Positions 19,148 through 36,247 of a stretch of 36,247 bases of DNA are shown here, one piece after another; positions within the stretch are counted from its first letter, which is position 1, and each line of letters begins with the position of its first letter. The position numbers were made by a program, and so were the translations under genes. Source of the DNA: Clostridia bacterium (GTDB lineage Bacteria > Bacillota > Clostridia > Oscillospirales > CAG-382); assembly GCA_017381715.1 (NCBI GenBank), contig JAFOBR010000046.1, forward strand, positions 1 through 36,247, read 5' to 3'. The notes below the pieces were generated by a model. It did no database searches and was not told where the DNA came from. It saw only the letters and a program-made list of their open reading frames with translations.

Positions 19148-19208
19148 TTTAATTTGTTTTCAATATAATCATCACGGAGTGGTGGATAGAATCACGCTGA
19201 CTGAGATA

Positions 19209-19300
19209 CACGCAGGTGCGTGATGATATACGCCTTTGGCGATGATATACCAATGCTTTCGCATTGGATAAAAAAATCCAAGTCTTTCGACTTGGATTTT
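19209..19300 (-). repeat. Hairpin array A, downstream of tRNA-Glu
   Basis: Read on the plus strand: hairpin CACGC/GCGTG (19209-19222), linker ATGATATA, hairpin CGCC/GGCG (19231-19241), linker ATGATATA, hairpin CCAATGC/GCATTGG (19250-19267), an A-run, and hairpin 19277-19296 (8-bp stem, TTTC loop), which with its T-run is the tRNA terminator on the minus strand. On the minus strand the order is tRNA-Glu, terminator hairpin, then three hairpins joined by TATATCAT. The same arrangement follows tRNA-Arg at 35.6 kb. Confidence 0.85.
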
Positions 19301-35550: not shown

Positions 35551-35625
35551 GCCTGCATAGTTAAATGGATATAACAAGCCCCTCCTAAGGGCTAGTTGTG
35601 GGTTCGATTCCCGCTGCGGGTGCCA
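35551..35625 (+). tRNA. tRNA-Arg (anticodon CCT)
   Basis: Cloverleaf of 75 nt with encoded CCA: acceptor GCCTGCA/TGCGGGT, D-arm GTT...AAC, anticodon stem AGCCC/GGGCT with loop CTCCTAA (anticodon CCT), T-stem GTGGG/CCCGC with TTCGATT loop, discriminator G. The acceptor holds G-T pairs at the first and fourth positions and a C-G-rich remainder. Confidence 0.94.
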
Positions 35626-35627
35626 AA

Positions 35628-35659
35628 AAATTCCAAGTCTGCGGACTTGGAATTTTTTT
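35628..35659 (+). terminator. Terminator of tRNA-Arg
   Basis: Stem AAATTCCAAGTC region: TTCCAAGTC (35631-35639) with GACTTGGAA (35644-35652), TGCG loop, T7. The stem closely matches that of the tRNA-Glu terminator (19277-19296), with a different loop. Confidence 0.92.
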
Positions 35660-35661
35660 AT

Positions 35662-35838
35662 CCAAGCCGCAGGCTTGGTATATCATCCGACGCAAGTCGG
35701 TATATCATCAAAGGCGGGTTTCCGCCTTTGCATCTCATCACGCATCAGCGTGCATCTTCCTGCGGCTTGATGATATACAACACTACGTGTTGATGATATA
35801 CAATGCTTCGCATTGATGATATACACGCCTTTGGCGTG
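35662..35838 (+). repeat. Hairpin array B, downstream of tRNA-Arg
   Basis: Seven perfect short hairpins: CCAAGCC/GGCTTGG (35662-35678), CCGAC/GTCGG (35687-35700), CAAAGGCGG/CCGCCTTTG (35709-35730), CACGC/GCGTG (35739-35752), CAACAC/GTGTTG (35778-35792), CAATGC/GCATTG (35801-35815), CACGCC/GGCGTG (35824-35838). Linkers are TATATCAT after hairpins 1 and 2, CATCTCAT after 3, and ATGATATA before 5, 6 and 7. The linkers thus invert across the middle. CAAGCCGCAGG (35663-35673) is also complementary to CCTGCGGCTTG (35759-35769). The 337 bases from the tRNA to the next gene hold only this, the terminator and a promoter. Confidence 0.92.
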
Positions 35839-35876: not shown

Positions 35877-35905
35877 TTGACAAACAACCGATTTTATGAT
35901 ATAAT
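35877..35905 (+). promoter_or_regulatory. Promoter of the DUF4091-like gene
   Basis: TTGACA (35877-35882), 17-base spacer, TATAAT (35900-35905): perfect consensus. A GCAGGG/CCCTGC hairpin (35923-35928 with 35935-35940) lies in the leader. Confidence 0.88.
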
Positions 35906-35962: not shown

Positions 35963-36247
35963 ATGTTCAAGACTAAGATCGTTTCGTCTCAGCAGAAGGC
36001 GTTTTTGGATGATTCCATCGATTCCTTCCCTCGGTTGGAGAAAATTTCCGTTCTTCGGGGGGAGAGGCTCTCCTTTCAGCTTCTTTACGTGGATGAGGGG
36101 GAGGGATATCTTCCCTCCCGTCCCTATTGCGGGCTGACGGTCGAGGGAGCGCTTTCGGAGCATGTTACCGTCCGCGACGTGCGAAACGTGCCCGTGGACC
36201 GTCCCCTGCATCCCGATCGGGCGGACGAATATTATCTGCGCCGAACC
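35963..36247 (+). CDS. DUF4091-like putative glycosidase, N-terminal part (runs off window)
   Basis: Open from ATG 35963 to the last base: 95 codons without a stop. GGAGGGG sits just upstream at good distance and a consensus promoter further up. The N-terminus (FKTKIVSSQQKAFLDDSIDS, then GERLSFQLLYVDEG and VRNVPVDRP...DEYYLRRT) resembles the start of DUF4091 proteins, a family predicted to act on glycans, whose members commonly begin with a strand-rich domain of this sort; this is from memory and moderate. The codons are visibly richer in G and C (GAG, TCC, CGG, GGG) than those of the upstream genes, which may mean recent transfer. Sitting next to a tRNA and hairpin array fits that idea but no integrase is in view. 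Confidence 0.65.
   Translation, partial: MFKTKIVSSQQKAFLDDSIDSFPRLEKISVLRGERLSFQLLYVDEGEGYLPSRPYCGLTVEGALSEHVTVRDVRNVPVDRPLHPDRADEYYLRRT

Follow-up and report, generated by a model that had tools for sequence, protein, structure and literature searches.

The window, the whole stretch of 36,247 nucleotides that was analysed, is one entire contig (C62) of the 1.8-Mb host genome, which comprises 102 contigs. Toward its end lies a tRNA-Arg(CCT) gene whose 3' end, ..GGGTGCC/A, is the insertion point of the tail (here and below, a slash marks the junction). The tail consists of a perfect intrinsic terminator (H0) and an array of seven hairpins (H1 to H7) arranged about a centre, and it is followed by a promoter and the start of a presumed cargo ORF, which is cut off by the contig end and has no Pfam match (Table 1). 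An earlier note on this DNA had taken all of 35628-35838 to be array, but the 5' part, to 35659, is the intrinsic terminator of the tRNA and contains no array unit. This terminator reads as bidirectional and is present at the same position in other copies. The earlier note overlooked a second, decayed element of the same family, which we call type A, behind a tRNA-Glu.

Table 1. Features of the window array and its surroundings
Feature	Position	Strand	Basis
Second, decayed type A array with terminator, behind tRNA-Glu	19170..19296	-	
tRNA-Arg(CCT)	35551..35625	+	ARAGORN; Rfam tRNA 60 bits
H0, perfect intrinsic terminator AAAAAATTCCAAGTC-TGCG-GACTTGGAATTTTTTT with A-tract and T-tract	35625..35659	+	Inverted repeat
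H1 hairpin CCAAGCC-GCA-GGCTTGG	35662..35678	+	
Left linker 1, GTATATCATC, reverse complement of GATGATATAC	35678..35687	-	
H2 hairpin CCGAC-GCAA-GTCGG	35687..35700	+	
Left linker 2, GTATATCATC	35700..35709	-	
H3 hairpin CAAAGGCGG-GTTT-CCGCCTTTG	35709..35730	+	
Left linker 3, degenerate form CATCTCATC (GTATCTCATC in sister copies)	35731..35739	-	
H4 hairpin CACGC-ATCA-GCGTG	35739..35752	+	
Centre segment a'', CCTGCGGCTTG, complement of segment a (H1 5' arm and loop, 35663-35673)	35759..35769	+	Inverted repeat; coupled variation in 89 elements
Right linker 1, GATGATATAC	35769..35778	+	
H5 hairpin AACAC-TAC-GTGTT	35779..35791	+	
Right linker 2, GATGATATAC	35792..35801	+	
H6 hairpin CAATGC-TTC-GCATTG	35801..35815	+	
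Right linker 3, GATGATATAC	35815..35824	+	
H7 hairpin CACGCC-TTT-GGCGTG, array end	35824..35838	+	
Promoter TTGACA-17-TATAAT of presumed cargo gene	35877..35905	+	Sequence; such sites enriched behind arrays, same strand
Presumed cargo ORF start, cut off by contig end, no Pfam match	35963..36247	+	

The seven perfect hairpins with different stems described in the earlier note stand well clear of chance. The segment 35659-35840 contains exactly seven perfect hairpins with a stem of at least 5 bp and a loop of 3-4 nt (stems 5-9 bp), whereas 2000 shuffles averaged 0.32 and never gave more than 3, and other 182-nt stretches sampled in the window away from the array never contained more than four. 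The RNA fold of the array has an energy of -97.8 kcal/mol, with z-scores relative to shuffles of -7.7 (+ strand) and -9.2 (- strand). The hairpins are joined by linkers that we write as GTATATCAT(C) in the left half and GATGATATAC in the right half; with at most one mismatch allowed, the window has 13 occurrences of GATGATATAC where 1.7 are expected. The left and right linkers are inverted, as had been proposed, GTATATCATC on the left being the reverse complement of GATGATATAC on the right. The fixed left 8-mer of the proposal, TATATCAT, is exact at two of the three places, but the third reads CATCTCATC, and the conserved linker is really 10 nt long. The centre reads CATCTTC followed by CCTGCGGCTTG. 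We concur that the array is neither a CRISPR, a coding feature nor a plain terminator: the repeat is only 10 nt, the 'spacers' are self-complementary and the halves are inverted, while H1 to H7 lack a U-tract and are each followed by a linker, so that a GC-rich hairpin with a U-tract is found in H0 only.

A search for the linker in the host genome and its relatives, a check that the earlier note had suggested, returned many further copies and bears out its guess of a repeat family. The host genome contains 37 exact linkers, against one for the reversed control, and most of these fall in about ten arrays of the same layout whose stems differ from copy to copy. The host arrays lie mostly 40-70 nt behind a tRNA, directly after its terminator, and the common layout is terminator, H1, linker, H2, linker, H3, linker, H4 and centre, followed by inverse linker, H5, inverse linker, H6, inverse linker and H7. 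Tandem linkers were present in 20 of 63 genomes of the family (control matches, 0). The matches listed from GTDB genomes exceed 120 stretches and came mostly from Clostridia/Oscillospiraceae MAGs, many with ruminant-gut titles, and also from Candidatus Ruminococcus equi. Viral contigs gave 24 matches to the type A tandem linkers. We counted 128 distinct type A units, with conservation confined to the linkers. Some arrays lie away from any tRNA and some have a tandem-only layout; in G168, the arrays at non-tRNA places sit within another dispersed repeat. At least five families with other linkers have the layout of the window array. The linkers of families in the same genus, besides Gut-1 (see below), are GTGAAGT with ACTTCAC, ATGAAG with CTTCAT, AACATCGTTT with AAACGATGTT, and a TGATAT type.

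Unforeseen by the earlier note, the class includes the Rfam RNA Gut-1 (RF01706). Both consist of tandem variable-stem hairpins joined by a fixed short linker (UGAAAU in Gut-1), and the window array, like Gut-1, has hairpins three in a row with a short linker repeated between them. It is nevertheless not a member of RF01706: its scores of 17.1 and 16.9 bits (E 0.45-1.5) fall short of the 50-bit cut-off, and its linker and hairpins are different ones. Of 197 genomes of the order, 81 contained genuine Gut-1 matches. A single genome often had 10-20 of them or more, and one congener had 40. In its full context, Gut-1 is the left half of an element with the layout of the window array: a tRNA or tmRNA, a terminator, H1 (CCACCC-TTGC-GGGTGG), GTGAAAT linkers, a centre GGGTGGATTTA that is complementary to TAAATCCACCC, and an inverted right half with ATTTCAC linkers. 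The Rfam model covers the left half only. The Gut-1 report lists the family as certainly RNA and from the human gut only, and its main text gives no description of the tRNA and inverted-half context (PMC2864571). Among open-licence papers, our searches on the linker, RF01706 and tRNA-adjacent hairpin cassettes found nothing beyond that report.

What is kept across the units is pairing and not sequence, as the earlier note supposed, and the covariation test that it had outlined gave a strong signal. Of 476 units parsed, 413 were perfectly Watson-Crick. Among 35 distinct 13-nt hairpins, 98.3% of cells were paired and 63 double changes were counted, against 13.2 in shuffles; the signal was lost when the partner was slid. 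Long-range pairing is supported as well, other than the tree of paired linkers that had been imagined: the 5' arm and loop of H1 (segment a) covary with the centre. Examples of such complements are AAGCCGCAG with CTGCGGCTT, AAGTCGCAG with CTGCGACTT, ATTGCGAAAG with CTTTCGCAAT, and ATTACGGAG with CTCCGTAAT. Over 89 elements, the match of the H1 arm to its own complement averaged 8.7 nt, compared with 5.6 nt when permuted (maximum 6.1 in 200 permutations). The H1 hairpin and the pairing of its arm with the centre are mutually exclusive, and this geometry was seen in every family inspected by eye.

The arrays are strongly associated with the 3' ends of tRNA genes. We found that 58 of 114 inverted type A arrays follow the 3' end of a tRNA within 150 nt. 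The tRNAs concerned have many identities, and chance would give about 2 of 114 (111 tRNAs in 872 kb). Where array and tRNA are near each other (66 cases), the array is always on the 3' side and the distance is nearly always 40-70 nt; for more distant tRNAs the 3' end faces the array in 21 of 21. The base before the A-run of the terminator is C in 60 of 60 tRNA-adjacent arrays and in 31 of 37 others.

We compared what follows orthologous tRNAs in three congeneric genomes and found turnover of the tails at some of them. Many of the tRNAs are followed by an ordinary short terminator in each genome; others have a different array family in each species, with the switch falling exactly after CC/A and the terminators differing too. 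For example, the tRNA-Val tails of the congeners are of type A, Gut-1 and type D. The tRNA-Arg of the window is followed by type A in the host and by an array with GTGATGT linkers in G028, and it is interrupted in G027 and G029. One tail in G028 (group 27) is reduced to a terminator and H1. At the decayed element at 19.2 kb, G028 has lost the element, and in the G027 orthologue all left linkers now read GTATGG(C/A)ATC or similar, indicating that linkers can change in concert.

Turnover of this kind bears on the possibility that terminator and array form a bidirectional transcription barrier, useful to the host, which insulates highly transcribed tRNA units from the genes on either side and has no role in mobility. 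Such a barrier would accord with the A-tract/T-tract terminator that begins every tRNA-adjacent copy examined, with a layout of left and right halves that looks alike from both directions, and with the location of the arrays between the tRNA and the promoter of the next gene. We consider it unlikely, however, because H1 to H7 have no U-tracts, many tRNAs of the three genomes manage with just an ordinary short terminator, arrays at orthologous tRNAs are swapped, truncated or absent, and arrays reappear between stacked cargo genes.

Direct evidence on the nature of the arrays comes from four clean pairs of filled and empty sites, all in draft metagenome assemblies, in which the arrays are the left ends of cassettes of 0.8-1.2 kb with the order terminator, array, promoter, small ORF(s) and right end. 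The insertions fall precisely between the CC and the A of the tRNA, and in all four filled sites each of the two junctions has a CA dinucleotide. In group 18, the empty site in the host genome (G000) reads CACC/AAAAAACAC, while the filled site in G028 reads CACC/ATGTAAAA, then 1.0 kb, then TTTAAGGC/AAAAAACAC. The group 28 insert, of about 0.8 kb, ends TTTCGC/AAAATAAACG (G000 filled, G027 empty), and that of group 21, of about 1.2 kb, ends GTTCCC/AAAACAAAAC (G027 filled). In all three groups the old tail is kept from its first A. The fourth pair is from the host itself, where comparison of C78 with C34 at tRNA-Trp reveals a 798-bp insert carrying a type A array, a 147-aa ORF and a right end that we call m2; the insert ends GTTTAAGGC/ACGCAGAAAACC, and the homology blocks of the two contigs overlap by exactly CA. 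The tRNA-Trp before the array on C78 (L033, about 1366-1510) has an aberrant 5' half and is a rearranged gene or an assembly join. Stacking is seen on C101, where a type A array, a gene and a GTGAAGT-type array follow one another before synteny resumes. That the arrays are left ends of cassettes at tRNA CC/A was not foreseen by the earlier note; its suggestion of a recombination site is plausible.

Right ends were recognized for a minority of arrays. The motif m2, GACACCTTTTGTTCGTTTTTACCTCTGTTCAGACACCTTTTCACTCGTTTAAGGC and close variants, closes cassettes with unrelated ORFs at many loci in several genera, including host C78 and G028, and is nearly always directly before a C/A terminator; a search of 394 genomes of the order found it in just 5, and a search of viral contigs found none. 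A second motif, m1 (..TTTGTATCAAAATTA..GT.A.TT.CC), closes other cassettes (L089, L097 and L334) and is present in two viral contigs; its region was not found in plasmids, and phages held only a 40-nt stretch of it. One of the two viral contigs, L388, encodes two large serine recombinases in tandem (PF00239 and PF07508, CcrB-like), the first of them about 46 bp away from m1. The link to a recombinase comes from this one contig, where the m1 end was not seen beside an array. No recombinase genes were found inside the cassettes. The CA at the cassette junctions is consistent with exchange by serine recombinases, which takes place at a 2-bp core.

The filled sites also speak to a second alternative, a selfish repeat of the REP/BIME or MITE kind that spreads by itself with no fixed relation to cargo genes. 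The arrays are dispersed and multi-copy, their abundance is species-specific, they contain inverted hairpins as BIMEs do, and nearly identical half-elements occupy non-tRNA sites of G168. Nevertheless, the filled sites contain array, gene and right end and never an array alone, and the stems are not conserved as those of REPs are: no palindrome sequence is conserved across the 128 distinct type A units. Mobilisation by a Y1/RAYT transposase was rejected on the finding that no PF01797 gene is present in the 3 congeneric genomes (search controls were positive). We regard the selfish repeat as quite improbable. Insertion of an isolated array was likewise rejected, all four informative filled sites containing both array and cargo.

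The units have a strand polarity. Departures from pairing are A.C on the strand carrying the TGA..-type linker (17:3 in type A, 9:1 in Gut-1 and 6:2 in type D, counts of few departures in related hairpins that are not independent) and, on the opposite strand, G.T or G.U in the same three families. Loops behave similarly in three families: C-TNC-G or TNNC on the TGA..-linker strand is C-GNA-G or C-GNNA-G on the other, and d(C-GNA-G) loops form exceptionally stable DNA mini-hairpins. Inversion of the halves puts the favoured strand on top in one of them and at the bottom in the other, so that one transcript can never have both halves in the favoured form, while a DNA end can. A structured non-coding RNA conserved for RNA function, as proposed for Gut-1, would account for the strong covariation of the stems, for the sister family that is an Rfam ncRNA judged 'certainly' RNA (PMC2864571), and for the G-U wobbles on one strand of each unit, but it is very improbable given that no transcript has both halves in the favoured sense, that wobble cells are rare even on the favoured strand (1.8-2.6%, against 6.5% G-U in tRNA acceptor stems), that the array is located behind a strong terminator, and that orthologous sites turn over rapidly.

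We consider it probable that the array is the structured left end of a small, non-autonomous gene cassette at the 3' end of tRNA-Arg, mobilised in trans by a serine recombinase. The window copy would belong to such a cassette, with a right end that is unseen because the contig ends inside the cargo gene. In such a cassette, a bidirectional terminator and an inverted mini-hairpin array would be followed by a promoter, then by a small gene or two, and finally by a short motif at the right end. Entry would be between the CC and the A of a tRNA gene, with CA left on either side of the insert. The tRNA would gain a new terminator and its old tail would be displaced downstream, so that cassettes would stack. 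The 2-bp core, together with the one recombinase-encoding element with a shared right end, suggests that cassettes are probably moved by serine recombinases, with large enzymes of this class acting in trans. Each hairpin would be kept as a folded single strand on the ..TCA..-linker strand, most likely to allow the DNA end to fold and be recognized by the recombinase. For protecting the tRNA, the H0 terminator by itself could be enough.

The proposed cassettes resemble several known systems, and each comparison has its limits. Integron gene cassettes are small, with variable cargo and a structured, sequence-variable end (attC); the newest lies nearest a fixed entry site, and they stack. The array cassettes likewise have variable cargo beside a structured end, the newest next to the entry site, and stacking, but they enter at the CC/A of tRNA genes, have a CA core and carry their own promoter, and no attC R or L boxes were recognized in them. 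With tRNA-targeted islands and large-serine-recombinase elements of the SCC/Ccr type, the array cassettes share insertion at tRNA 3' ends, the restoring of the tRNA by a tail, and a 2-bp core (CA, at both junctions of the four filled sites); the recombinase beside m1 is CcrB-like. In contrast to islands and SCC, the array cassettes are only 0.8-1.2 kb, contain no recombinase, use tRNAs of many identities and have a multi-hairpin left end. REP/BIME sequences with RAYT are inverted hairpin repeats of intergenic DNA as well, but the arrays have variable stems, conserved linkers and, in the 3 congeneric genomes, no Y1 transposase. The double-hairpin elements of fungal mitochondria are mobile mini-hairpins with compensating stems, like the array units, but belong to another type of genome and have no inverted linker array, tRNA target or cargo.

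The arrays probably represent a large and barely described family of structured DNA ends on mobile cassettes of gut Clostridia. We would go further only tentatively, to a widespread and undescribed integron-like system in gut Clostridia in which shared serine recombinases might bring cassettes with structure-defined, sequence-free array ends to the CC/A of almost any tRNA or tmRNA. The arrays would then serve as recombination ends, folded and polar with respect to strand, which diversify in concert, and what is listed as Gut-1 RNA would be one fragment of them. If true, the orphan Rfam family Gut-1, described in gut metagenomes alone, would find its explanation as a piece of a DNA element, and the cassettes would be a very common source of small-gene turnover beside tRNA genes in uncultured Clostridia. 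The arrays offer a natural test of whether structure alone, without sequence, can define a recombination end, and the cassettes a set of tRNA-targeted insertion sites that is independent of tRNA identity.

We also examined the genes behind the arrays. Of 80 such genes, 63 are on the same strand as the array and 17 on the opposite strand. A promoter-like site was present behind 57% of arrays, against 4% on the opposite strand and 5% in shuffles, which differs from the promoterless cassettes of integrons. Most of the cargo tested had no Pfam match. Ten of about 80 cargo genes belong to one family, the four-helix-bundle protein PF05635, so named by Pfam; G000, G027 and G028 contain 13 genes of this family, about half of them directly behind a tRNA tail or array. 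The PF05635 genes are of the 23S-rRNA-intervening-sequence type. A cDNA or tRNA-primed model, with the 3' CCA of the tRNA as template-switch point, was hinted at by this Avd-like cargo and was set aside for want of reverse transcriptase evidence.

Several further tails and rearrangements were observed. Long-palindrome tails, some with PF05635 genes, repeat the terminator arm in the centre and have no linker array (G027 C1, C3, C9 and C10; G028 C9:2505; G000 C30). In another tail family, a conserved hairpin block (GGGTTGGTAGTGAATGACAGCCCGGTGGGCTGTCAGAGCCAACCCTGACCGAGCCCGCAGGCGAGA) lies between inverted copies of a tRNA 3' end (tails on G000 C14, G028 C11 and C24, and G027 C30; L176). In G027 and G029 (L186 and L188), inserted DNA breaks the tRNA-Arg(CCT) gene at its anticodon loop (CCTCCTAAG). 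The inserted DNA has further tRNA-Arg-like copies, and the arrangement resembles an attachment site of another integrating element. In the host, contig C80 (L031) starts within a type A array, and its right flank is the DNA that follows tRNA-Arg and array in G028 (L187), suggesting that an island or rearrangement separates two array copies at tRNA-Arg. Positions 1-161 of L078 hold tandem copies of GTATATCATCCGCTACTGTAGGGGC, the type A linker with a single repeated, non-variable unit. Finally, a palindromic insert (GGGGTTCCCCGAA..GGGGTTCC) lies within the loop of H1 or of another array hairpin (L045, L050, L086 and the G027 C35 tail), so that one hairpin element nests in another.
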